Positions 12,069 through 38,461 of a stretch of 38,955 bases of DNA are shown in pieces. Position numbers and translations under genes: made by a program. The DNA is from Salinisphaera sp. GTDB taxonomy: Bacteria; Pseudomonadota; Gammaproteobacteria; Nevskiales; Salinisphaeraceae. The DNA is taken from positions 1 to 38,955 of the forward strand of contig JAQIBT010000145.1 of the NCBI GenBank assembly GCA_027858915.1, written 5' to 3'. Within the stretch, counting starts at the first letter, position 1; every line of letters starts with the position of its first letter. A model generated the notes under the pieces. It had not been told where the DNA came from, searched no databases, and saw nothing but the letters and a program-made list of their open reading frames with translations.

Positions 12069-12389
12069 ATGATCACTTGTTATCTTCGCTACGTCATCGA
12101 TCCGCACAAGGTTAGCGACTTCGAACACTACGCCCGGCTCTGGATTCCGCTGGTCGAGAAGTTCGGCGGTACGCATCACGGCTATTTTCTGCCGCATGAG
12201 GGCGCTAATGATATCGCCGTGGCGTTGTTTTCGTTCCCGAGTCTGGCGGCGTACGAGACCTATCGGAGCGACGCGGCAGATGACCCTGAATGCCAGGCGG
12301 CGATGCAGCACTATCGGGATACAAAGTGTTATTTGAGCTACGAGCGCTCTTTCATGCGGCCCGTCTTCAACGACGAGTCTCGGTCATGA
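12069..12389 (+). CDS. NIPSNAP family protein
   Basis: A 106-residue ferredoxin-like (dimeric alpha-beta barrel) NIPSNAP protein. It starts CYLRYVIDPHKVSDFEHYARLW and carries LVEKFGGTHHGYFLPHEG and a C-terminal tail FMRPVF. AGGAAG lies just before the ATG. Its stop overlaps the start of the DUF1338 gene (ATGA), so the two are coupled. The biochemical role of bacterial NIPSNAP proteins is unknown. Coupling to a 2-oxoacid decarboxylase suggests a catabolic accessory role, but that is inference. Confidence 0.85.
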   Translation: MITCYLRYVIDPHKVSDFEHYARLWIPLVEKFGGTHHGYFLPHEGANDIAVALFSFPSLAAYETYRSDAADDPECQAAMQHYRDTKCYLSYERSFMRPVFNDESRS

Positions 12390-13786
12390 ATGACTCGGCG
12401 TTCGTTTCCAGCGACGAGATTCGCGACCGCTTCTCGCGGGCCATGTCGGCGATGTACCAGCGCGAGGTACCGCAATATGCTGCGCTGCTGGAACTGGTTG
12501 CCGATATCAACGCCCGGACGTTGGCAGACAGTCCCGATCTTCAGGCACGGCTAGCCGCAAACGGCGAGCTGGACCGGCTGGCGGTCGAACGCCACGGCGC
12601 GATTCGCGTGGGCACCGCAAACGAGCTCGGCATGCTGCGGCGGCTGTTTGCGGTGATGGGCATGGCGCCGGTCGGCTACTACGATCTGTCGGCCGCCGGC
12701 GTGCCGGTGCATTCCACGGCCTTCCGGCCGGTCGACGAGGCCGCGCTTCAGAAGAACCCTTTTCGTCTGTTCACTTCATTGCTGCGTCTCGACCTGATCG
12801 AGGACGCCGAACTGCGTGATCGCGCCATAGCGATTCTCGACAAACGCGATATCTTCACCGCCGGTGTGCGCGAGCTCATCGATACGTTCGAGAGCGAAGG
12901 CGGACTGAGGGAGGAAGAGGCCGAGCGATTCGTCGCCGAAGCGCTGGAGACTTTCCGCTGGCACGAACAAGCGACCGTGGACTATGCGACCTACCTGGCG
13001 CTGGCAGCCGAGCACCGACTGATTGCCGACGTGGTCTGTTTTCGCGGCCCGCATATCAACCATCTCACGCCGCGCACGCTGGATATCGATGCCGCCCAGG
13101 CTGCCATGCCCGACTACGGCATGACGCCCAAGGCCGTCATCGAAGGCCCACCGGCCATGACCCAGCCGATTCTGTTGCGCCAGACCAGCTTCAAGGCGCT
13201 GGAAGAGTCGATTCGGTTCGCCGGCGAGACCGAGGGCCGGCATACCGCTCGCTTTGGCGAGATCGAACAACGTGGCATCGCCCTCACCCCCGAAGGCCGC
13301 GCGCTCTACGACCAGCTACTGGCCGAGGCGCAGTCGTACAAGGCCGATACCAGCAACGAGGAATACCAGACGAAACTCGCGGAAATCTTCGAACGATTTC
13401 CGAGCGATCTCAAGACACTGCGCAACCGCAAACTGGCCTATTTCCGATACGAGGCGGTCGGCGGCGTCCGGCTGACCGCCAACGCGCCTACAGATAACGA
13501 AAGTGCGGTTGCTGCACTGGTATCCTCCGGTGCCATCGTGGCCCACCCGATCACCTACGAGGACTTTCTGCCGGTGAGCGCCGCAGGCATCTTCCAGTCG
13601 AATCTTGATGGTCCAACGAAGAGCCAGAGCGCTGCCGCGAACGCAAACATGGCCGATCTGGAAGCCGCGCTCGGCGTCGATATTATCGACGAATTCGCGC
13701 TTTATGCAGAGATGGAAGTTGACTCCATGCGGCGCGCGCTGATCGCGCTCATGCCGGCTGATCTGGAGCACGACACGCTGCATTGA
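12386..13786 (+). CDS. 2-oxoadipate dioxygenase/decarboxylase (HglS/YdcJ family, DUF1338)
   Basis: A 466-residue protein of the DUF1338 family. Pseudomonas putida HglS converts 2-oxoadipate to D-2-hydroxyglutarate with O2 in lysine catabolism. The metal ligands known there (His70, His226, Glu294) are found here at identical numbers: His70 in ERHGAIRVGT, His226 in GPHINHLTPR and Glu294 in FGEIEQRG. Arg74 is also present. VHSTAFRPV and DFLPVSAAGIFQSN are further family motifs. The start at 12386 is fixed by overlap with the NIPSNAP stop; an earlier in-frame codon at 12290 lies inside that gene. No other lysine-degradation gene is in the window, so the physiological substrate is uncertain. Confidence 0.9.
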   Translation: MNDSAFVSSDEIRDRFSRAMSAMYQREVPQYAALLELVADINARTLADSPDLQARLAANGELDRLAVERHGAIRVGTANELGMLRRLFAVMGMAPVGYYDLSAAGVPVHSTAFRPVDEAALQKNPFRLFTSLLRLDLIEDAELRDRAIAILDKRDIFTAGVRELIDTFESEGGLREEEAERFVAEALETFRWHEQATVDYATYLALAAEHRLIADVVCFRGPHINHLTPRTLDIDAAQAAMPDYGMTPKAVIEGPPAMTQPILLRQTSFKALEESIRFAGETEGRHTARFGEIEQRGIALTPEGRALYDQLLAEAQSYKADTSNEEYQTKLAEIFERFPSDLKTLRNRKLAYFRYEAVGGVRLTANAPTDNESAVAALVSSGAIVAHPITYEDFLPVSAAGIFQSNLDGPTKSQSAAANANMADLEAALGVDIIDEFALYAEMEVDSMRRALIALMPADLEHDTLH

Positions 13787-28731: not shown

Positions 28732-29757
28732 TCAGTCGGCGGGGGCCTTGTTTCGGGTGGCGTCGACAGCCTCCGTGGTATTCGCCTGCGTCGGCAGCTG
28801 GAAGGTGCCGGGTTCGGCATCGCCCCATTGCAGTCGGAACGTGTCTTGACTGGCCCTGGCCGACTCCTGATGGGTTCTGCTGTCCGGCTGCACATGCACC
28901 GTGGCGCTCAGGCCAACGCTCAAGGGGAGCTTTTCGGGCGAGCGATCAAATGCGATCGTAACCGGCACGCGCTGCGCCAGACGTACCCACTGAAAAGTCG
29001 GATTGACGCTCGGCAGATTGCGCTCGCCTTTTGCGTTGTTGGGCACCGCGATACCGCGTCCAATGCTGGTGACATGTCCGCTCAGATGGGTGTCGCCGGC
29101 CATCAGCGTGATGTTGGCATGGGCGCCGACCTGGATTCTGGCGAGCTTGGTCTCTTCGAAATACGCGGTGATACGGAACGTCTCGGCATCGACCAGCGTC
29201 ATGACTGACGATCCCTGGCGGGCATAGTCGCCCTGGTCGAGCTGGAGATGAGTGATATAACCATTGACCGGCGAACGCACGGTCGCCCAGTCCAGGTTCT
29301 GTCTTGCCTGAGCGAGCTTCGCCTGCGCCTGACCCACCGCTGCCGTAGCCATCAGCGCCTGGGACTGCGCCTGTTGCAGATTCTGGGTCGATACCCCGCC
29401 GGGCGGCAGACGCTCCAGACGATGCGCATTGCGCGCCGTATACGCCTGCTGAGCCTGGGCGGACTTCAGGTTGGCTTGGGCTTCAGCAAGCGCGTTCTTG
29501 AAACGCACCGGCTGAATCTTGAACAGCAGATCACCGACATGGATATAGCTGTCGTCTTTCACCGCGACCTCAGTCACCGTGCCCGAGACCTCGGGTGCAA
29601 TATTGATCACGTCGGCCTGAACGCGCGCATCGCGGGTCCACGGCGAATAGACATAGTGTTGCCATGCAAACCAGCCGAGCACCGCTGCCACGGCGACCAC
29701 GATCAGCGTGGCAAAAGCTCGGAGTACGGTTTTGCCGAATATATTCGAACGCGCCAT
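28732..29757 (-). CDS. HlyD-family membrane-fusion protein (AaeA/EmrA-like)
   Basis: A 341-residue periplasmic adaptor. A single N-terminal helix (LRAFATLIVVAVAAVLGWFAW) anchors it in the inner membrane. YSPWTRDARVQADVINIAPEVSGTVTEV is typical of AaeA/EmrA. A short coiled-coil hairpin (about 90-160), the second lipoyl half (ATVRSPVNGYITHLQLDQGDY) and a beta-barrel follow. With the DUF1656 protein and the FUSC permease it should form an AaeAB-like aromatic-acid efflux system. ATG 29757 was preferred to 29775, whose first six residues lie in the DUF1656 end. Outer-membrane partner not in this operon. Confidence 0.9.
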   Translation of the reverse strand: MARSNIFGKTVLRAFATLIVVAVAAVLGWFAWQHYVYSPWTRDARVQADVINIAPEVSGTVTEVAVKDDSYIHVGDLLFKIQPVRFKNALAEAQANLKSAQAQQAYTARNAHRLERLPPGGVSTQNLQQAQSQALMATAAVGQAQAKLAQARQNLDWATVRSPVNGYITHLQLDQGDYARQGSSVMTLVDAETFRITAYFEETKLARIQVGAHANITLMAGDTHLSGHVTSIGRGIAVPNNAKGERNLPSVNPTFQWVRLAQRVPVTIAFDRSPEKLPLSVGLSATVHVQPDSRTHQESARASQDTFRLQWGDAEPGTFQLPTQANTTEAVDATRNKAPAD

Positions 29758-29764
29758 AGGTCGC

Positions 29765-29968
29765 TCAGGGTCCAAGCATGAGAATCATCACCGATAGCAC
29801 GATGATGAACAGAGCCGCCCCAGCCAGTGCCGGGTGCCAGAAAAAACGATAGGCCTGGAAACGCACGAGCACGAACCGCAGGGCGAGATAGATCAATCCG
29901 GTGCCGGCCAGAAACACCAGGAAGATCGGCAAATAGATACCGCCAAACGAGACCTGTTCAGGAAACAC
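29765..29968 (-). CDS. DUF1656 small membrane protein (AaeX-like)
   Basis: A 67-residue inner-membrane protein with two helices (IYLPIFLVFLAGTGLIYLAL and LAGAALFIIVLSVMILML). It is the DUF1656/AaeX type that accompanies FUSC-HlyD efflux operons. The start is GTG at 29968, preceded by GGGAG with a 9-base spacing and overlapping the permease stop by 11 bases. An ATG-type start further upstream at 30025 would extend into the permease gene. Role is unknown, probably structural. Confidence 0.85.
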   Translation of the reverse strand: MFPEQVSFGGIYLPIFLVFLAGTGLIYLALRFVLVRFQAYRFFWHPALAGAALFIIVLSVMILMLGP

Positions 29969-32072
29969 GGTTGGGTTCTCCCAGCTCGATCCGGCCTGCG
30001 TCGCTATTCTCGCGCGCCAGCGCATAATCGGCCAACGCCGCGGCCACCAGTTCGGCGGCCACCGCGGCCCGAATACCCAGCCGCCGCTGCTGGCGACGAT
30101 TGAACGTCTTGCCTTCCTCGAGCATATTCAGGGCTAGGCGATTCGCCCTGACCTGCCTATCCAGCACCTGCTCTATTTCCGGCAACCCATGTTCAAACAA
30201 GGCTTCCAGCGCTTGCAACTCCTGGCGAACCGCCTCGTTTATTGACGCTGAAAAAGACGCACGGCTGGCCAGAATTCGCAGCGAGCGCGCTTCCAGGCCC
30301 ATATTGACGGCCGAAAATGCGGCTTGACGGGCCGACACATGGGTCTCGCCCTTGTCGGCAGCGACCGGTAACCGCAGCAGGCGATCGTAGACGCGTGTTT
30401 CGAAATGTTCGCGCGCCCCCGTGAAGCCTTTCGACAGCTCGCCGAAGATTCCGGCCAGGCGTTCGCGAAGCAGACGTCGCGGCGATGTTGGCAATACCAG
30501 GGTAAATGCGACAAGCGCCAGAATCACCGCCAGCTCGGCACCCATCAATGTCTCGGCGAACGCTACAAAACTCTGCCGCGTGCTGTTGCCCGGGTGGACG
30601 AGTAGCGCAAAAACGACCAGGCCAACGCGCCCTATCAATGCATAGGCCGGCGTGATCATCGCTAATCCGGCCACGAACACAACCGGTAATAGCACCAACA
30701 TGAGCATGGCAAAGCTGGTGGCGTGCGGCAGAAACACAAAGTTCACGAAGAAGGCGGCCACGCCAGCGCACAGGCCAGCAATACCAAAGCCACGCGCGCC
30801 GCCGACCGGGTCGTCGCCAAGCGCAAACAGGGTCGTCAGCACACTCAGCAACACCATCATACCGGCCAGCGCGGGTTCAGCGTGAGTCGACCAGATTGCC
30901 GCTCCCATACTCATGGCGACGGCTGCGCGCACAGTCGTGCGGATCGATTCGCGCAGCTCGATCGGGGTGCGAAATTCGTTACTGCTGGATACCCCGTGAC
31001 GGCCGGAACCACGTTCAGCTATGAGATTGCCGTGCTTGATCACCGCGGCGCGCATGCGATTGGCCATGTCCATGGCCCGGCTGATGATCACCCAGTCCAC
31101 CAGCGATCGCTTCTGTGCCTCGGGGCTGCCATCGCGCGCCATCGCCAGAATACGACTGTAGGCCTGGCTGAACGCGCGTTTGATTATCGCTGTGTTGTTG
31201 GGATCGTCGCTCAGCAGTTTGGCGGCGTGGTCCAGCTCTCGCAGCGGTGCGCGATCGACTTGGTGCGCGAACTTGGACAGATACACCTGCAACGAAGCCA
31301 TCGCGCTGACCAAGGCTAGCAACTCGTAGTCGAGTCGTCTGGCCAAGCGGTCGTATTCGGCAAAACCCGGCTCGTCGAAGCGGGCATATTGGCGTGTCTT
31401 CTCGAGCTCGAGCGTGGTTTCGACCAGGTCCTGAAGGTCTGAGTGCGGGACGTCGGCTTTGCCTGCGTCTGCGTGCCGCACGTCCGGATCCCGATCCAGG
31501 CGCATGATTTGAGCGCCAATTGCCTTAAAAGCCTTGATGCGGGCCTGAAAATATTTTTTTGCGGTCGTGCTCGGGGCAAGCAGGACGCTGACGAAGGCGG
31601 CTACGACCGCAGCCAGCGCAGTTTCTGCGGTACGCGCGACCGATATCGAGAACACCGCAGTCGGATCGGTCATCGCGCGTACGCCGATGATGGCCGTCAC
31701 ATAGCCGGCCAGCACAAAACCGTAGGACATGTTGTTCCGGAACAGGCTGGCGCAGAACACCATGGCGCCCACCCAGGCAATCAGGCCGACCGAGAACAGC
31801 GTGTAGCTCTGGGCAAACAGCGCAATCAGCACAATGCCCATGATGCCGGCAACAAAAGTACCGAGCAGCCGGGCAAAGCCGCGGACGACCAGAAAACCGG
31901 GCAGCGGCTGGATCAGAATCGCGACGTTGATGAACACCCAGTAGGCGTTGTCGAGCTGTAACCAGAATGCCAGGTACAAAGATAACGCCACCGATACGCA
32001 GCAGCGGATGGCGAACGACAGCTGCTCGGCGCCGGGTGCAAAAAGCCATGAGAACCTCGACATGGCGTGCAT
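29958..32072 (-). CDS. FUSC-family aromatic/fusaric acid efflux permease (AaeB-like)
   Basis: A protein of about 704 residues. Two membrane blocks are visible, residues about 20-170 (LSFAIRCCVSVALSLYLAFWLQLDNAYW; GFARLLGTFVAGIMGIVLIALF) and about 390-540 (LSVLTTLFALGDDP; GNSTRQSFVAFAETLMGAELAV), each followed by a soluble helical domain. The LDNAYWVFINVAILIQP text is typical of FUSC/AaeB. It exports aromatic acids or similar toxins with the HlyD adaptor. Start is ambiguous: GTG 32078, ATG 32072, ATG 32063. It lies 63 or so bases after the TetR gene. Confidence 0.9.
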   Translation of the reverse strand: MHAMSRFSWLFAPGAEQLSFAIRCCVSVALSLYLAFWLQLDNAYWVFINVAILIQPLPGFLVVRGFARLLGTFVAGIMGIVLIALFAQSYTLFSVGLIAWVGAMVFCASLFRNNMSYGFVLAGYVTAIIGVRAMTDPTAVFSISVARTAETALAAVVAAFVSVLLAPSTTAKKYFQARIKAFKAIGAQIMRLDRDPDVRHADAGKADVPHSDLQDLVETTLELEKTRQYARFDEPGFAEYDRLARRLDYELLALVSAMASLQVYLSKFAHQVDRAPLRELDHAAKLLSDDPNNTAIIKRAFSQAYSRILAMARDGSPEAQKRSLVDWVIISRAMDMANRMRAAVIKHGNLIAERGSGRHGVSSSNEFRTPIELRESIRTTVRAAVAMSMGAAIWSTHAEPALAGMMVLLSVLTTLFALGDDPVGGARGFGIAGLCAGVAAFFVNFVFLPHATSFAMLMLVLLPVVFVAGLAMITPAYALIGRVGLVVFALLVHPGNSTRQSFVAFAETLMGAELAVILALVAFTLVLPTSPRRLLRERLAGIFGELSKGFTGAREHFETRVYDRLLRLPVAADKGETHVSARQAAFSAVNMGLEARSLRILASRASFSASINEAVRQELQALEALFEHGLPEIEQVLDRQVRANRLALNMLEEGKTFNRRQQRRLGIRAAVAAELVAAALADYALARENSDAGRIELGEPNRVS

Positions 32073-32140
32073 TATCACGCGATCGACGAAGGCCAGCCAG
32101 CTTTATCGCGCAATCATATGTGGTCTTGGACAGGCGGTGC

Positions 32141-32773
32141 TTATCTGCTGCTTGCCAGTTCCGGATCCAGCAGCGGCGCGAGCGTATCCAGGATACGTTC
32201 GACGTGCACCGGCAAGGCCTCGGTATCCAGTGTCTGGTTGGGCGACAAATCGTTGCACAGCGATACCAGCCCGTGAATTGCCGCCCACAGCAGCAAGACA
32301 CGCCCATAGGTGTCACCCGCCGCCAGCGTGCCGGCTGCCTGCCCTTGCTCGATGCCGCGATAGAGCAGATCGAAAGACATCTTTGCCTGAGCTTCGAGCA
32401 CGGGAAACTTTTCCGCGGGCAGATAATAAGCGAACATCAAACGATAGAGATGCGGATCGGCGTGCCCGATCTCGGCGTACCCGGTCAGCAGCGCGCGAAT
32501 AGTCGCCATGCTCAGTGGCTCACTCGCGGTCAATATGCGGTTGACCTCTGCGGTGAGACTTTCAAATCCCTGCATCGCGCAGGCAGCCAAAAGCGATTGT
32601 TTGTCGGCAAAATGGCGATAGGGGGCGCTGCGCGACACACCGATAGCCGAGGCAACATCGCGCAGCGTAACGCCAGCGATGCCGCGATCGCGCAGCAGAT
32701 CGAGTGCAGCCTCTACGCAGGCACGAGCCAGATCACCGTGATGATATGGTGTTGTCGAAGGTATTGGGTTCAT
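32141..32773 (-). CDS. TetR/AcrR-family repressor
   Basis: A 210-residue regulator. The helix-turn-helix is GIAGVTLRDVASAIGVSRSAPYRHFADKQSLLAAC (about 35-70). The C-terminal ligand domain with LLWAAIHGLVSL is of the WHG (TetR_C) type. It is the first gene of the FUSC operon and is divergent from the RND operon. A perfect 15-base palindrome between them (32800-32814) is the obvious operator, so it may control both efflux systems. The inducer is not known. Confidence 0.92.
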   Translation of the reverse strand: MNPIPSTTPYHHGDLARACVEAALDLLRDRGIAGVTLRDVASAIGVSRSAPYRHFADKQSLLAACAMQGFESLTAEVNRILTASEPLSMATIRALLTGYAEIGHADPHLYRLMFAYYLPAEKFPVLEAQAKMSFDLLYRGIEQGQAAGTLAAGDTYGRVLLLWAAIHGLVSLCNDLSPNQTLDTEALPVHVERILDTLAPLLDPELASSR

Positions 32774-32815: not shown

Positions 32816-32859
32816 TTAAGCTATTAGCTTCAGCCAATTGGGGTTTGGGTAGGGTTCCG

Positions 32860-34041
32860 ATGATACACGGCGCGCAGCGCAGTACGGTCGACCGGCTGAC
32901 GCTCAAGGCTGTTGGGGCCTGCGCGATTGCACTGCTGATCAGCCTTGGCGGCTGCGATCGTCCTGCCAGCGATCAACAATCGTCCCAGGTCCCTGCCAAC
33001 ACTCACACGTCTGACGCCAAGACCGTACAGGTCGCAGCGGTACGCAAGCTCGATCGTGCGCGGACCTATACGCTCGCCGGCACGACGCGCGCCGCCAGCC
33101 GCGCCCAGCTGTCGTTCCAGGTCAACGGCACGCTCACCCAACGCTCAGTAGACCTCGGGACGCGGGTCAAGAAAGGCGAGGTGCTGGCGCGACTGAGCCA
33201 ACCTGAGCTCAAACCCGAAGCGGCGGCAGCGGCAGCCAGCGTGCGACAGATGTCGAGCCAACTGGCCCAGGCCCGACGCAATCTGGCGCGGGTCAAGACG
33301 CTGGTATCGAAAGACGCCGCCACTCAACAGGAGCTGGAGGATGCGCGCTCGCGCCGCGACAGTCTGGTAGCTGGCCTGGCGCGCGCCCGAGCCCAGAGCC
33401 GACGCGCCAGCAACTCGGCGCATGAACTGACGCTCAAGGCACCGATCGACGGCACAGTCGATCGCGTCATGTTCGAGCCCGGCGAGTTTGTTCCGGCCGG
33501 GCAGCCGGTGATTGCACTCAGCGGCGCTCGAAAACTTGAGGTGGAGATTGGCGTGCCGGAACAGCTGATTGGTACGCTGACCTTGGGCGAGGCGGCCAAT
33601 CTCAGCCTGCCTTTCTTCGACAACCGCCCCATCAAGGGCATCGTCACTCGCGTATCGGCCGGCACGGGCGGCGACGGCCGACTCTTTCGAGTAGTGATCA
33701 GTCTGCCCGACCAGACCAATCTGCGCCCCGGTCTTAGCGTCGAATGGCATATCAAGGGGGCTCGTCAAACCGGCTTGCTGGTGCCTGCCAACGCGGTGGC
33801 CAGTCCTGGCTCAAGCCATCATCCTCGTGTCTACGTGGTGCGCGCCGGGGTCGTGCATTCGGTGCCGGTAACGCTTGGCGAACTGTTCGGCGATCAGGTA
33901 AGCGTGCGCGGCGCGCTGCAGCCCGGCGAACAAGTGGTCACCGTCGGGCTCGACAATCTGAGCGATGGCCGAGCGGTCGCGGTGCCGGATAATACCCATC
34001 GCGCTCGCCAGTCGACGGCCGATGGCGAGGCTAGTGAATAG
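32860..34041 (+). CDS. RND efflux adaptor lipoprotein (membrane-fusion protein)
   Basis: A 393-residue periplasmic adaptor. Residues 20-32 give a lipobox (LLISLGGC, Cys32), so it should be anchored as a lipoprotein after signal peptidase II. Lipoyl halves (LSFQVNGTLTQRSVDLGTRVKKGEVLARL; LKAPIDGTVDRVMFEPGEFVPAGQPV) flank a coiled-coil hairpin. A beta-barrel and membrane-proximal domain (VYVVRAGVVHSVPVTLG) follow. ATG 32860 has AGGG six bases before it; a TTG at 32845 would only add five residues. It overlaps the RND gene. Confidence 0.93.
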   Translation: MIHGAQRSTVDRLTLKAVGACAIALLISLGGCDRPASDQQSSQVPANTHTSDAKTVQVAAVRKLDRARTYTLAGTTRAASRAQLSFQVNGTLTQRSVDLGTRVKKGEVLARLSQPELKPEAAAAAASVRQMSSQLAQARRNLARVKTLVSKDAATQQELEDARSRRDSLVAGLARARAQSRRASNSAHELTLKAPIDGTVDRVMFEPGEFVPAGQPVIALSGARKLEVEIGVPEQLIGTLTLGEAANLSLPFFDNRPIKGIVTRVSAGTGGDGRLFRVVISLPDQTNLRPGLSVEWHIKGARQTGLLVPANAVASPGSSHHPRVYVVRAGVVHSVPVTLGELFGDQVSVRGALQPGEQVVTVGLDNLSDGRAVAVPDNTHRARQSTADGEASE

Positions 34042-37000
34042 CCCGCCCAATCTTTTCGGGCGATGTATCATCGGGCAGGGTCGGCTGGTTCTGGCCCTGG
34101 CGACCATATTTGCGCTGGCCGGCGTAGCGGCTTATTTTCAGATGAGTCGTCAGGAAGATCCCTCGTTTCCCTATCGCGTCGGCATCATCACTGTGACGCT
34201 GCCCGGCGCCTCGCCCGGACGCATGGAACGGCTGATCGCGCGGCCGCTCGAGCGTCAACTGGCCGAAGTCTCACAGGTGCACCACATTGATACGACGCTG
34301 CGCCGTGGTGTGGGCATCTTCATTGTTCAGCTGGGCGAGAAAATCTACGACACGGACACCGCCTGGGATCGCGTCAGGGTGGCGATGGGTCGCGCAGCGC
34401 GCGATTATCCCGATGGCGTACAGACCGCCAAGCTGGACGACCGCATCATCGATGCCAGTCTGATGGTGCTGGCAGTCACCGGCGACGACAATCTGCGCGC
34501 CCTGGCCGGCAAGACCAAGGCGCTGAGACGTCGCCTGCTCGGCGTTGACGGCGTGGCGTCGACCCATCTGTTCGGTGATCCCGGTCGCCAGATTACGATC
34601 GCCATCGACGACGCCGCCATGAGCCGCAACGACCTGTCACCCGCCATGATCGCCCGTGACATGCATGCCAGCAATCAGGTCACCGCCGGCGGCACCATCC
34701 AGCTGGCTGGCGCATCGATGAATCTGGAGCCGGCAACCGACTTCACGAGTATTCGTCAGATTGGGAGTACCGCGATTGGCCTGCCAAACGGGGGCTCGCT
34801 GCCGTTGTCGGCACTCGCTGATATCCATGAAGACAACGCCAGCCCCGGCGCAGCACAGCTGTGGTACGACGGCGATCGAGGCATCGGTCTGGAAATTGTG
34901 GCGCAGCGCGGCGTCAACACCGTGGCACTGGGCGAACGTCTGCGCCACGTCGTCGCGCGATATGCGAGCACGATGGCGCCGGCGCACGTGCACGAGATGT
35001 TCTATCAGCCAGATCAGACCCAGGCACGGCTGCACAACCTGTCGTTCAATCTGCTGGGTTCAATTGCGATCATTCTGGCGGTGCTGTTCGTCTTCATGGG
35101 GCTGCGAATGGGCTTGGTGGTCGCCGTATTATTGCCGCTGGTCACGCTGTCGACGCTGATGCTGTATGCCTTGGGCGGCGGCATTCTGCAGCAGATCGCG
35201 GTGATCGGGCTGGTCGTGTCGCTGGGTATTCTCGTGGACAACGCGATTGTCATGAGCGAGAACGTGCAGTGGCGACTTAACGCCGGCCAGTCGCCCGATA
35301 CAGCGGCAGCCGGCTCCATCAGCGAGCTCGCCGGGCCGCTGTTTGCCGCCACGGGCACCACGCTGGCCGCGTTTGTGCCGATGCTGCTGTCGACCGGCAA
35401 CACCGCTGACTTCACTCGCGCGCTGCCGATCATGATCATGATCAGCCTCAGCGTCAGCTATCTGTTTGCGATCACGGTCACGCCGATTGTCTGCCGTTAT
35501 TATCTTCGTCCCCGGCCGCGCGCCAGCCGCGGCGTGCTTGACCATCTGGGCGACGGCCTGTCGCGATGGACCGTCGGCGCTCCCAAGCGGCTGATTGCTG
35601 GCGGTGCGCTTGCCATTGCCCTGTCTCTTGCCTGTGGACCACTCCTCGATCAATCCTTCTTTCCGGCGGCCGATCGCGATGTCGTCGTGGTTGATCTATC
35701 GATGCCCGAGGGCACTGCCATTGATCACACCTCGACTACCGCGCGTCAACTGGCGCAGGCACTGCGCTCACACGCCGAGGTGCGATCGGTCGATGCTTTC
35801 ATTGGTAACGGCGGCCCGACCTTCTACTACAATCTTCGTCGGGCGTCGTCCGCGCCGCAGTTTGGGCGCGTCGTCGTCAACACCACCGATAAGACACATA
35901 ATGCAGACGTCATTGATTTCGTCGAACGCTATAGCCATCGCCATCTGCCCGGCGCCGAGGTCGTCGCGCGCTCCCTTGGCCAGGGTCCGATCGTGAATGC
36001 GCCTATCGAGGTGCGTGTGTTCAACCCTGACGCCGAGGCTCGCGTCGCTGCTACCGACGCTGTATCTGCCGCTGCCCGCAAGGTGGCCGGCACGCGTGAG
36101 GTACGCAACGATCTGGGTCGCGGTGTCCCCGGTATTCATTATAAAATCCATCCGGCCATTGCCCGCTCGTTCGGCGTCACCCCGAAAGATGTCGCTGATA
36201 CGCTTGCCGGGCGCAGCGAAGGCCTGGTCGTCGGCCAATACCGCGGCGACAAAGACCCCATGCCGATTCGACTGCGAAGCCCAGCCGGCATACACTTCTC
36301 GCCGGTCGCCCTGAGTACCGCCAACGTCTACGGCGAGAACGGCCGCTCGGTGCCCTTGATGCAGGTGGCCACACCCCGGCTGGTCATGCAGCCGGGGTCA
36401 ATTCGACACTACGACCAGCGCCGCGTCGCCCGCGTTTATAGTGAACTGCAGCCCGGTGCCGTCTACAGTCAAGTGCTGAATCCATTACGGCAGAAGATCG
36501 CTGCGTTGTCATTGCCGCCGGGCACGCAGATCGAATACGGCGGCAACAGCGAAGAGTCCGGCAAGGCGAACTCGGCCCTGTTCCGTCTCGCACCGCTAGG
36601 CCTGGCGCTGCTGCTGTTCTTCCTGCTGATCCAGTTCAACTCTTTTGTTCGCGTGGGCCTTGTACTGCTGACGGCACCGTTCGCGTTGGTTGGCGTGATC
36701 CCGGGTCTGCTGCTGCTGCATATTCCGTTTGGCTTCATGCCGCTGCTAGGGGTTATCGCGCTCACGGGTATTGTGGTTAATAACGCCATCGTATTGATCG
36801 ATGTCGTGGACCAGTGTCTGAAGGAAGGACTGCCCATCACCGATGCGGTCGCAGAAGCTGTCAGGCGACGGACACGGCCTATTATTCTGACGACGGCCAC
36901 GACCATTGCTGGCCTGCTGCCGCTGGCGCTCTCGGGAGCCACGCTCTGGCCGCCAATGGCATGGCCAATCATCACAGGACTGCTCGCCTCCACGGTCCTC

Positions 37001-38461
37001 ACGTTGCTGGTCCTGCCAGCCATCTGTTGTCTGACGCTCGGGCGAACCCGCCACCGCTCAGGCCCCAACACCGCTCGACGTCACGGCTCGACGAAAGCAA
37101 TTTTCATACTCACGTTGGTTGCCACCGCGTCGTTTTTTGCGATCGCACCGCCTGCGAGAGCTGCCTCCTCGACTTCGCTCGGAACCGTCAGTTTTGCCCA
37201 GGCGCTGAAGCTTGCAGCGCATCGGGCAGAAGTCCAACGCGGCCGGCACCAACTGGATGCCGCCACCGCCAATGCCGATCGTATCCGCCGGGCCGGCCGT
37301 TATCCAACGCTTTCGGTAAGCGGCTTTGTTTCGCACAGCGGCAATGTTGCGCAGCTAAACACGCGAAATTTCACGAACGACGTGCCTGGGCTGGCGGGCA
37401 CACCGAACCAGACATTCAACCTGAACAATCAGAATCAGCGGGGCGCTGACGTCGAGCTTCGACAGCCGATCGTGGATATAGCGCAACAATTCTACGGCGC
37501 TCCTGCCGCATCACAGAATGCAAGCGCAGCGGCATCCACCTTGGCACATTTACGTCTGACGGCGATGGTGTCAGCCGCCAATGCGTATGTTGCGGCGATG
37601 TCAGAACGGGCGCGTTTGGCGGCCAATGCCGCACTGATAACCGATTTGAAAGCCCGCACAAAACGATTCAAATCGCTGCAGAATACGGGCCGGGCGCTGA
37701 CGAGTGACGTTCTGGAAATCCAATATTCGCTGGCAGAAGCCAAACAGAATCAGGCCGACTATCAGCGTAATTACCAGATCGCCAGCGCGCGGCTTGGGCA
37801 GGCAGTTGGGCGCGATACCGCCGTCGCTCCATCCTCACTCGCGTTCGCGCCGCCGGGCGTGGACATCAATATCGACAACCTGGTCGCCCGGGCGCTGTCG
37901 CAGCGTCGCGATATCGTGGCACTTGATCACCAGATACACGCTGCCAAATTACAGACCCAGGCGATTGCGGCCGAACGCCTGCCAACGGTCGACGCAGTCG
38001 CCAGCCTGAGCTACAACAACGGCAGCGTGTTCCTGCCACATCACGACAAACGCATCATGGCCGAATTGACCTGGCGCCCCTTTGCCGGCGGCCAGATTAG
38101 TGCTCGACATCGCGCGGCGGCAGCCAGCCTGGCCGCGTTAAAGGCCAGTCGGGTCGAGCTGACTCGGAGCATTGCTGTAGCTGTGCGAAAGGCAGCCGCC
38201 GACCTTGCCAGTATGCGCGAGCGTAAAAATCTCATGCAACTCGGTGTCGAAAGCGCCGAGGCCACTCGCCGCACGCGTTCGGCGCGGCTCGAAGCCGGGC
38301 GCGCCAACCTCAGCGATGTGCTGGAATCTGATACGCAACTCGCGAAGCGCAGAGCTGCGGCAAAGACGAGCGACTACAATCTGGTTGCCGCCTGGGTGCG
38401 TCTGCAGGGCGCCATGGGCGACGACAGGGCATTAGGCCGGCTGATACTTAAAGCTAAATAG
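34022..38461 (+). CDS. RND inner-membrane pump fused to TolC-like outer-membrane factor
   Basis: A single frame of 1479 codons. Residues 1 to about 1005 are a full RND (HAE-like) permease: TM1 near 20-40, two large periplasmic loops, ILVDNAIVMSENV with Asp406 at the proton-relay site (the second Asp of the usual pair is Asn407) and VVNNAIVLIDV in the second half. After an Arg-rich linker (GRTRHRSGPNTARRHGSTK) comes a hydrophobic stretch ending APPARA-ASS (about 1025-1048), which has the form of a Sec signal peptide. Residues about 1048-1479 form a TolC/OprM-like outer-membrane factor with two helical repeats. No stop separates the parts. Start could also be GTG 34034. Confidence 0.9.
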   Translation: MARLVNSPPNLFGRCIIGQGRLVLALATIFALAGVAAYFQMSRQEDPSFPYRVGIITVTLPGASPGRMERLIARPLERQLAEVSQVHHIDTTLRRGVGIFIVQLGEKIYDTDTAWDRVRVAMGRAARDYPDGVQTAKLDDRIIDASLMVLAVTGDDNLRALAGKTKALRRRLLGVDGVASTHLFGDPGRQITIAIDDAAMSRNDLSPAMIARDMHASNQVTAGGTIQLAGASMNLEPATDFTSIRQIGSTAIGLPNGGSLPLSALADIHEDNASPGAAQLWYDGDRGIGLEIVAQRGVNTVALGERLRHVVARYASTMAPAHVHEMFYQPDQTQARLHNLSFNLLGSIAIILAVLFVFMGLRMGLVVAVLLPLVTLSTLMLYALGGGILQQIAVIGLVVSLGILVDNAIVMSENVQWRLNAGQSPDTAAAGSISELAGPLFAATGTTLAAFVPMLLSTGNTADFTRALPIMIMISLSVSYLFAITVTPIVCRYYLRPRPRASRGVLDHLGDGLSRWTVGAPKRLIAGGALAIALSLACGPLLDQSFFPAADRDVVVVDLSMPEGTAIDHTSTTARQLAQALRSHAEVRSVDAFIGNGGPTFYYNLRRASSAPQFGRVVVNTTDKTHNADVIDFVERYSHRHLPGAEVVARSLGQGPIVNAPIEVRVFNPDAEARVAATDAVSAAARKVAGTREVRNDLGRGVPGIHYKIHPAIARSFGVTPKDVADTLAGRSEGLVVGQYRGDKDPMPIRLRSPAGIHFSPVALSTANVYGENGRSVPLMQVATPRLVMQPGSIRHYDQRRVARVYSELQPGAVYSQVLNPLRQKIAALSLPPGTQIEYGGNSEESGKANSALFRLAPLGLALLLFFLLIQFNSFVRVGLVLLTAPFALVGVIPGLLLLHIPFGFMPLLGVIALTGIVVNNAIVLIDVVDQCLKEGLPITDAVAEAVRRRTRPIILTTATTIAGLLPLALSGATLWPPMAWPIITGLLASTVLTLLVLPAICCLTLGRTRHRSGPNTARRHGSTKAIFILTLVATASFFAIAPPARAASSTSLGTVSFAQALKLAAHRAEVQRGRHQLDAATANADRIRRAGRYPTLSVSGFVSHSGNVAQLNTRNFTNDVPGLAGTPNQTFNLNNQNQRGADVELRQPIVDIAQQFYGAPAASQNASAAASTLAHLRLTAMVSAANAYVAAMSERARLAANAALITDLKARTKRFKSLQNTGRALTSDVLEIQYSLAEAKQNQADYQRNYQIASARLGQAVGRDTAVAPSSLAFAPPGVDINIDNLVARALSQRRDIVALDHQIHAAKLQTQAIAAERLPTVDAVASLSYNNGSVFLPHHDKRIMAELTWRPFAGGQISARHRAAAASLAALKASRVELTRSIAVAVRKAAADLASMRERKNLMQLGVESAEATRRTRSARLEAGRANLSDVLESDTQLAKRRAAAKTSDYNLVAAWVRLQGAMGDDRALGRLILKAK

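Follow-up and report, generated by a model that had tools for sequence, protein, structure and literature searches.

In the window, by which we mean the whole 38,955-nucleotide stretch of Salinisphaera sp. DNA that was analysed, a single open frame on the forward strand (34022..38461) encodes a 1479-residue protein that combines, by its sequence and Pfam matches, an RND permease and an outer-membrane factor (OMF). The frame is stop-free from 33965 to 38461 and yields 1479 residues when translated from the ATG at 34022; the true start could instead be the GTG at 34034, and in an alignment the relatives start ~8 residues downstream. From N- to C-terminus, the product comprises an RND permease and a TolC-family OMF, both complete, with a basic linker and then a hydrophobic stretch ending in PPARA-ASS between them. 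Pump and duct are thus not encoded by separate genes, as in a tripartite RND efflux operon, but by one frame.

Immediately upstream, on the same strand, a 398-residue frame (32845..34041) encodes a periplasmic adaptor (membrane fusion protein) that matches HlyD_3 and HlyD_D23 in Pfam as well as RND_mfp in NCBIfam (E 4.9e-68, above the cut-off), and that overlaps the start of the fused gene by 20 nt. An adaptor occupies this position at all fused (10/10) and all RND-only (65/65) loci having 1.3 kb of upstream sequence. A divergent gene on the reverse strand (32141..32773), encoding a 210-residue TetR-family protein (Pfam TetR_N, E 3.8e-13; TetR_C_33, E 9.3e-10), is the probable local regulator of the operon; a TetR homologue lies at most 3.5 kb away at four of ten fused loci, the window included, versus 6 of 65 RND-only loci. 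The genome also contains a signal peptidase I gene.

The RND half (residues 1 to about 1005; 34022..37036) is full-length: ACR_tran covers residues 21–1001 and profile positions 10–1016 of 1021 (E 4e-143; 478.8 bits against a cut-off of 28). Its nearest solved structures are 6vej (E 1.4e-105), listed as a probable RND efflux transporter, which we take to be TriC, and MexK (9xwg, E 1.7e-99). No NCBIfam RND subfamily cut-off was reached, the best being RND_permease_2 with 380.5 bits against 1250, so that this half falls outside the named NCBIfam subfamilies. The mature OMF part (residues 1048–1479, 432 residues; 37163..38458) contains two OEP repeats (37196–37810 and 37874–38419) that score above the Pfam cut-off (E 7.6e-36, the best at residues 1285–1466), and a profile built from nine OMF halves of the fused type matches TolC-family structures (best E 2.5e-18); the OMF half alone missed the TIGR01844 (type_I_sec_TolC) cut-off (115.1 bits against 225.15). 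The statement in the preliminary description that both partners are complete and share one 1479-residue frame is therefore borne out by the open frame and by the ACR_tran and OEP matches. A phage or defence link was rejected, since PHROGs gave no match for the duct half and PADLOC none for the fused protein.

The OMF half has no N-terminal signal peptide of its own; the signal-like segment is internal. The junction reads GRTRHRSGPNTARRHGSTKAIFILTLVATASFFAIAPPARA, followed by ASSTS. Its first part is a basic, predicted cytoplasmic linker that would form the n-region of the signal (about residues 1006–1025; 37037..37096) and brings a net charge of +6 ahead of the core, and its second is a hydrophobic core and c-region ending in APPARA (37097..37162); signal peptidase I is predicted to cleave directly after Ala1047 (nt 37162). 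About 11 residues separate this site from the first OEP match (37196), and about 20 separate the core from it. By a scoring rule of our own, the window junction has the signal peptidase I layout, with a basic n-region (net +6), a hydrophobic core and small residues at -3 and -1 that satisfy the cleavage-site term (shuffle p 0.0045).

Under this rule, which is not a trained predictor and was written once all junctions had been viewed, a signal-peptide-like junction is present in 17 of the 17 fused proteins first examined (window included), versus 11 of 195 other hydrophobic segments of these proteins; because the fused proteins are related, these counts are not independent tests. In a further set of 11 fused proteins, of which one belongs to the same subfamily and ten to another, nine pass with Ala at -1 and all 11 with Ala, Gly or Ser, as against 7 and 12, respectively, of 135 segments; two Bacteroidota members fail when Ala is demanded. 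In the shuffle test, three of the 17 junctions (L033, L035, L009) gave p values of 0.043–0.087, and that of L044 fails the stricter -3 rule applied there. In a ten-sequence alignment of fused relatives, which includes two near-duplicate pairs, Ala1047 (the expected -1 residue) is the sole invariant column between Cys1002 and Val1071; this column is not invariant in nine- and eight-member alignments that take in distant relatives. Three close pairs of fused genes gave dN/dS values of 0.04–0.14 for the RND half and 0.14–0.23 for the OMF half, while dS was saturated in a fourth, and in three of the four pairs the junction evolves fast compared with these constrained halves. The junction is conserved as a pattern, not as a sequence. 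That the duct is a lipoprotein was rejected (Cys at the predicted +1 position in 0/17 junctions), as was a special RNA structure at the junction (z -0.52).

At a presence threshold of E <= 1e-150, the gene was detected in 14 of 85 genomes of the order: ten carry it fused, three as separate, adjacent rnd and omf genes, and one (G011) broken at a contig end. Besides the window, six other genomes of the genus have the fused frame, as do three more of the order (41–59% protein identity; 1440–1701 codons without a stop); beyond these, such fusions are found in other phyla and also in a second RND subfamily. In the split relatives (G019, G020 and G023), the genes form adaptor-pump-duct clusters in which the duct gene directly follows the pump gene, its ATG overlapping the pump stop; the two genes lie in different frames, each with its own start. 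Each of these split ducts begins with an ordinary signal peptide of 23–24 residues (cut site read by eye), at the place corresponding to the fused junction: the predicted cut lies 40–41 residues ahead of a conserved proline in the split ducts and 41–70 residues ahead (median 48; window 47) in the 17 fused members, with the value of 41 for L035 and L009 read by eye. The earlier reading of the junction as a signal-peptide layout therefore holds, given the maintained pattern, the invariance of Ala1047 in the ten-member alignment and this shared position.

In a quick tree, computed without the truncated L108, the 17 fused and three split ducts group together in a single clade (SH-aLRT 100) that excludes 14 stand-alone ducts. 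On the rnd tree, computed without L150 and the partial L143, the fused rows are scattered and a single clade of all of them was rejected (p-AU 3e-63), a distribution that losses plus a fission fit as well as repeated fusion. Since the duct profile had missed L155, L159, L160 and L162, ducts of the window genome, the surroundings of non-fused pumps were searched again with 64 single queries; one of these, L153, is not a duct frame, and its match in L047 was discounted. It had also been suggested that the codon at 37091 may be the lost start of a stand-alone OMF. The codon is indeed ACG, but as the fusion is common to seven genomes of the genus and the fused rows are scattered on the rnd tree, there is no single codon that could be identified as a lost start, and the fossil-start reading was rejected. 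Moreover, because the split genes overlap in different frames, it would take more than the loss of a start and a stop to join them.

We consider it highly probable, from the sequence evidence, that 34022..38461 encodes a polyprotein which signal peptidase I separates into a pump and a duct made 1:1, and a 13th helix cut after residue 1047 is the best model for the junction. The ribosome would first make a MexK-like, 12-helix, proton-driven RND permease whose C-terminus is cytoplasmic. The basic linker would hold the orientation of the following segment, and the hydrophobic stretch, acting as a 13th helix, would engage the Sec translocon and draw the TolC-type chain behind it into the periplasm. 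A cut by signal peptidase I at PPARA-ASSTS would then leave the old signal peptide on the pump C-terminus, and the freed duct would fold, trimerise and insert in the outer membrane. Together with the adaptor from the gene upstream, this would give a self-contained tripartite pump. Export, cleavage, stoichiometry and assembly are in this sense what we infer from the gene and its relatives.

Were the chain left uncut, the 13th helix would persist as a signal anchor and keep the duct attached to its own pump. The uncharged runs, 11–21 residues long across the 17 junctions, could anchor in some cases. However, the window linker looks too short: a fully stretched chain spans 0.35 nm per residue, and the 20 or so residues between core and OEP would thus reach some 7 nm. 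Published descriptions place the membranes 21–23 nm apart, with a pump of 7 nm and a duct of 10 nm separated by a gap of about 6 nm and making no direct contact, and locate the first OMF helix at the equatorial domain, midway along the periplasmic part of the duct. This geometric argument is weaker for L142 and L143, whose linkers are about 23 residues longer. The -1 Ala, unlike its surroundings, is also kept in the ten-member alignment. The tethered pump raised in the preliminary description is therefore disfavoured, and we regard it as improbable.

We give still less credence to the idea that translation starts internally near the junction and supplies the duct in addition, or in the main. 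A duct translated on its own does exist in the split relatives, and an in-frame ATG, GTG or TTG stands just ahead of the basic linker in 10 of 17 fused genes (ATG in L031 and L040). These codons, however, fall where the last pump helix ends and specify Leu, Val or Met; in a simple test of our own none has a Shine-Dalgarno-like match. The window linker contains no in-frame ATG, GTG or TTG, the first candidate being a TTG inside the core. A pattern scan for Shine-Dalgarno-ATG combinations returned 49 matches in the window, fewer than in shuffles (mean 92.6), and none on the forward strand between 34022 and 38461; an internal start was rejected.

That the frame arose through faulty assembly or sequencing, or is a recent fusion in decay, is scarcely credible: the frame of G011 is broken, though its match stops 67 bases from a contig end, but 10 of 14 genomes with the gene have it fused, nine other genomes of the order share the frame, both halves are constrained, and a complete plasmid record annotates a fused protein of 1467 residues from the second subfamily.

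The annotation of that plasmid protein says no more than RND permease subunit, and ducts of this kind may therefore be counted as missing. A search of open papers, limited in extent, found no description of RND-OMF fusions. Returning to the polyprotein, we raise the tentative and rather doubtful possibility that RND-OMF polyproteins are an overlooked class of tripartite pump, evolved at least twice and present in several phyla, that was selected because fusion fixes the 1:1 ratio and because slow signal-peptidase cleavage keeps each newly made duct next to its own pump until it is passed to the adaptor, coupling assembly to synthesis. To our knowledge, it is not well understood how pump and duct come together in the proper numbers across a periplasm ~20 nm wide; a natural polyprotein would set their ratio at one to one and offer a direct way of testing whether the duct has to leave the pump before assembly.

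Among known systems, the HAE-1 RND pumps TriABC-OpmH and MexJK-OpmH/OprM of Pseudomonas aeruginosa are similar in that the RND half has 6vej and MexK as its nearest solved structures and the adaptor is encoded beside the pump. PMC8277102 gives OpmH or OprM as the outer-membrane partners of these pumps. Here, by contrast, the pump's polypeptide itself includes a dedicated duct. The Pseudomonas operons, as far as we know, include no OMF gene. With Escherichia coli TolC and its OMF family the duct shares two OEP repeats and the profile match to TolC structures, whereas its signal peptide lies within the chain, at the C-terminal end of a different membrane protein, and not at the N-terminus. The G019, G020 and G023 clusters have orthologous pumps and ducts in the same succession, but as two separate overlapping frames. 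We know of few bacterial cases in which a multi-pass membrane protein and then an exported outer-membrane protein form one chain with an internal cleavable signal, and an RND-OMF polyprotein would, if true, be one of these. The cytochrome b/c1 precursor (FbcH) of Bradyrhizobium japonicum is likewise a bacterial membrane-protein polyprotein, which signal peptidase reportedly cuts at a signal within the chain; it differs in belonging to a respiratory complex and in comprising unrelated proteins, none of them in the outer membrane.

The open frame at 33965-38461 (+) encodes, from the ATG at 34022, a protein of 1479 residues in which an RND permease match spanning nearly the whole family length (residues 21-1001; the pump half) is followed by two OEP repeats of the outer-membrane factor (OMF) family (the duct half). 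The best solved relatives of the pump half are 6vej and MexK, and those of a profile of the duct half are TolC-family proteins; since both halves score under the NCBIfam subfamily cut-offs, we name only the broad families. The adaptor gene at 32845-34041 runs 20 nt into the fused gene, and a divergently oriented TetR-type regulator lies at 32141-32773. A complete tripartite pump is thus encoded here by two genes, the adaptor gene and the pump-duct fusion. A FUSC-family transporter gene (29958-32078, - strand) and an HlyD-type adaptor gene (28732-29775, - strand) adjoin this operon, so that two export systems lie side by side. Elsewhere in the window, the gene at 12290-13786 is a strong match to 2-oxoadipate dioxygenase/decarboxylase (HGLS; E 9.3e-161).

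The preliminary description called for a search for the same architecture in related genomes, and the fusion is indeed found there. Among 85 genomes searched in the order, 14 matched at E <= 1e-150: 10 carry the fusion in one stop-free frame, three (G019, G020, and G023) have split pump and duct genes, and in G011 the frame breaks near a contig end. The gene is present in eight of the 14 genomes of the genus, seven of them fused, including the window's own, and the eighth being the truncated G011 copy. The nine other fused genes of the order are 41-59% identical to that of the window; the fusion is real and old. When the duct half was used to query 369 genomes of the class, 34 had a match at E <= 1e-10. 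Frames of at least 1320 codons were present in five of these (G000, G013, G002, G097, and G171), the match in G287 sits in a frame truncated where its contig stops, and the remaining duct matches, among the matches listed, lie in frames of 422-575 codons. The fusion is uncommon in the phylum, since only one of five matching genomes (E <= 1e-150) in a 398-genome sample, the window's own, is fused.

A scan of named loci, covering the best 80 of a longer list, identified 10 fused loci: Salinisphaera (3), one labelled Endozoicomonas, Oceanococcus, a gammaproteobacterial MAG (start cut by its contig), Arenicella (end cut), and MAGs labelled Desulfobulbus, Acidobacteriota, and Deltaproteobacteria. 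The label of L031, titled Endozoicomonas sp. G2_2, looks wrong, and the sequence probably belongs to the window's genus; that of L094 (Deltaproteobacteria) looks doubtful, because the phylum sample drawn around it comprised largely the same genomes as that of the Acidobacteriota MAG. In L007 (= L033) and L008, both from the window's genus, the chain extends some 130-160 residues beyond the duct half (frames of 1701 and 1652 codons). Of the other 70 loci, 68 are pump-sized frames lacking the duct half and L109 is the truncated G011 gene; in L086 (6001-8999, Marinobacter salarius R9SW1) the orthologue's frame is broken near its start. Neither a profile nor 63 single duct queries (E <= 1e-4) detected a duct gene within up to 6 kb on each side of these 70 loci, eight of which offered less than 13 kb of DNA.

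In the three split relatives, the duct gene directly follows the pump gene in another frame, its ATG overlapping the pump stop (ATGcgTAG twice, ATGATG once), and the duct begins with 23-24 residues that read as an ordinary signal peptide. Over 420 aligned positions, the G020 duct shares 28% identity with the duct half of the window. The end of the signal is separated from a conserved proline near the duct start by 40-41 residues in the three split relatives and by 41-70 in 17 fused proteins (47 in the window; the distances for L035 and L009 were set by eye). In a quick duct tree, a single clade (SH-aLRT 100) unites the 17 fused ducts with the three split ones and excludes 14 stand-alone ducts. 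Given the N-terminal signal of the split ducts, the similar proline distance, and the shared clade, the junction between the halves is best interpreted as the signal peptide of the duct itself, which would now be internal.

The pump tree places 41 rows of the window's RND subfamily in one clade, comprising 17 fused, three split with a duct, and 21 lacking a duct (20 of these were selected from those found). The fused rows do not form one clade, and four changes between fused and not fused are needed. Taken with the single duct clade, this is most simply explained if the fusion arose early, several lineages later lost the duct, and a single fission took place; repeated fusion within this subfamily is a less simple but still tenable course. 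Since the fusion occurs so widely among relatives, the ACG at 37091, previously proposed as a possible lost Met start of a stand-alone duct, is not readable as the remnant of a start codon.

The signal-peptide layout attributed to the junction recurs across relatives. Along the fused chain, the last RND helix gives way to a linker that is basic and variable, then to a hydrophobic core and a short c-region whose final residue is alanine. Ala1047, after which cleavage by signal peptidase I is predicted, is the sole invariant column between Cys1002 and Val1071 in an alignment of ten fused proteins that includes two near-duplicate pairs; the column is not invariant in nine- and eight-member alignments with distant relatives. 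A rule requiring a core, a net positive flank, the -3/-1 rule, and a polar exit was passed by 17/17 junctions versus 11/195 other hydrophobic segments of the same proteins (17/17 versus 43/195 without the polar-exit condition). Further fused proteins passed the unchanged rule in 9/11 cases versus 7/135 control segments, and in 11/11 versus 12/135 when Gly/Ser was also allowed at -1. As the rule was written after all junctions were known and the proteins are related, these counts are descriptions rather than clean tests. Shuffling of junctions gave p <= 0.0135 in 14 of 17 (0.0045 for the window) and 0.043-0.087 in three. Among four close pairs, the junction protein sequence diverges far more than both halves in three and is identical in the fourth. 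No start codon was found before the hydrophobic core in the window; 10 of the 17 fused genes have an ATG, GTG, or TTG where the last helix ends, in no case with a Shine-Dalgarno-like match.

Because RND C-termini are cytoplasmic, a cleavable internal signal would be the simplest route for bringing the duct to the periplasm, and assembly of pump and duct would come after cleavage. The window's genome contains a signal peptidase I gene. An uncut chain, in which the duct stays tethered to its own pump, could hardly form the canonical assembly, since in the window the roughly 20 residues from the hydrophobic core to the first OEP match span at most some 7 nm, which looks too short for the dimensions given in excerpts of published work (intermembrane distance 21-23 nm, pump 7 nm, duct 10 nm, and a gap of about 6 nm from pump to duct without direct contact, PMC4754349; first duct helix at the equatorial domain, PMC8277102), although the longer linkers of two compared sequences, L142 and L143, weaken this geometric argument.

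Two further phylum samples were queried with a fused relative. In the phylum of the Acidobacteriota MAG (199 genomes), 21 genomes matched at E <= 1e-120, six of them with both halves (G804, G822, G892, G940, G957, and G978); in that of the Desulfobulbus MAG (198 genomes), nine matched, and G805, G1035, and G1072 have frames of 1464-1516 codons that include a duct half. The non-fused pump L192 (G1200) shares 54% identity with the fused Desulfobulbus relative, and no same-strand frame of at least 200 codons occurs within 2.4 kb after it. Fused proteins with a duct clade of their own also occur in a second RND subfamily, and are best read as a separate fusion event of the same design. Persicobacter (Bacteroidota) and Gemmatirosa (Gemmatimonadota) carry similar fusions in complete plasmid records, placed in this second subfamily only because they were found with its members as queries; with the window's own query, no plasmid record was found at 80% coverage. 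The annotation of one plasmid-borne fusion says no more than RND permease subunit, and in Parabacteroides and Phocaeicola records pump and duct are separate frames.

No description of an RND-OMF fusion was found in the open-licence literature, preprints excluded, among the titles and abstract starts of the matches listed, an absence that proves little. A precedent for a bacterial membrane-protein polyprotein is FbcH, the cytochrome b/c1 precursor of Bradyrhizobium japonicum, which is reported to be cut by signal peptidase at an internal signal.
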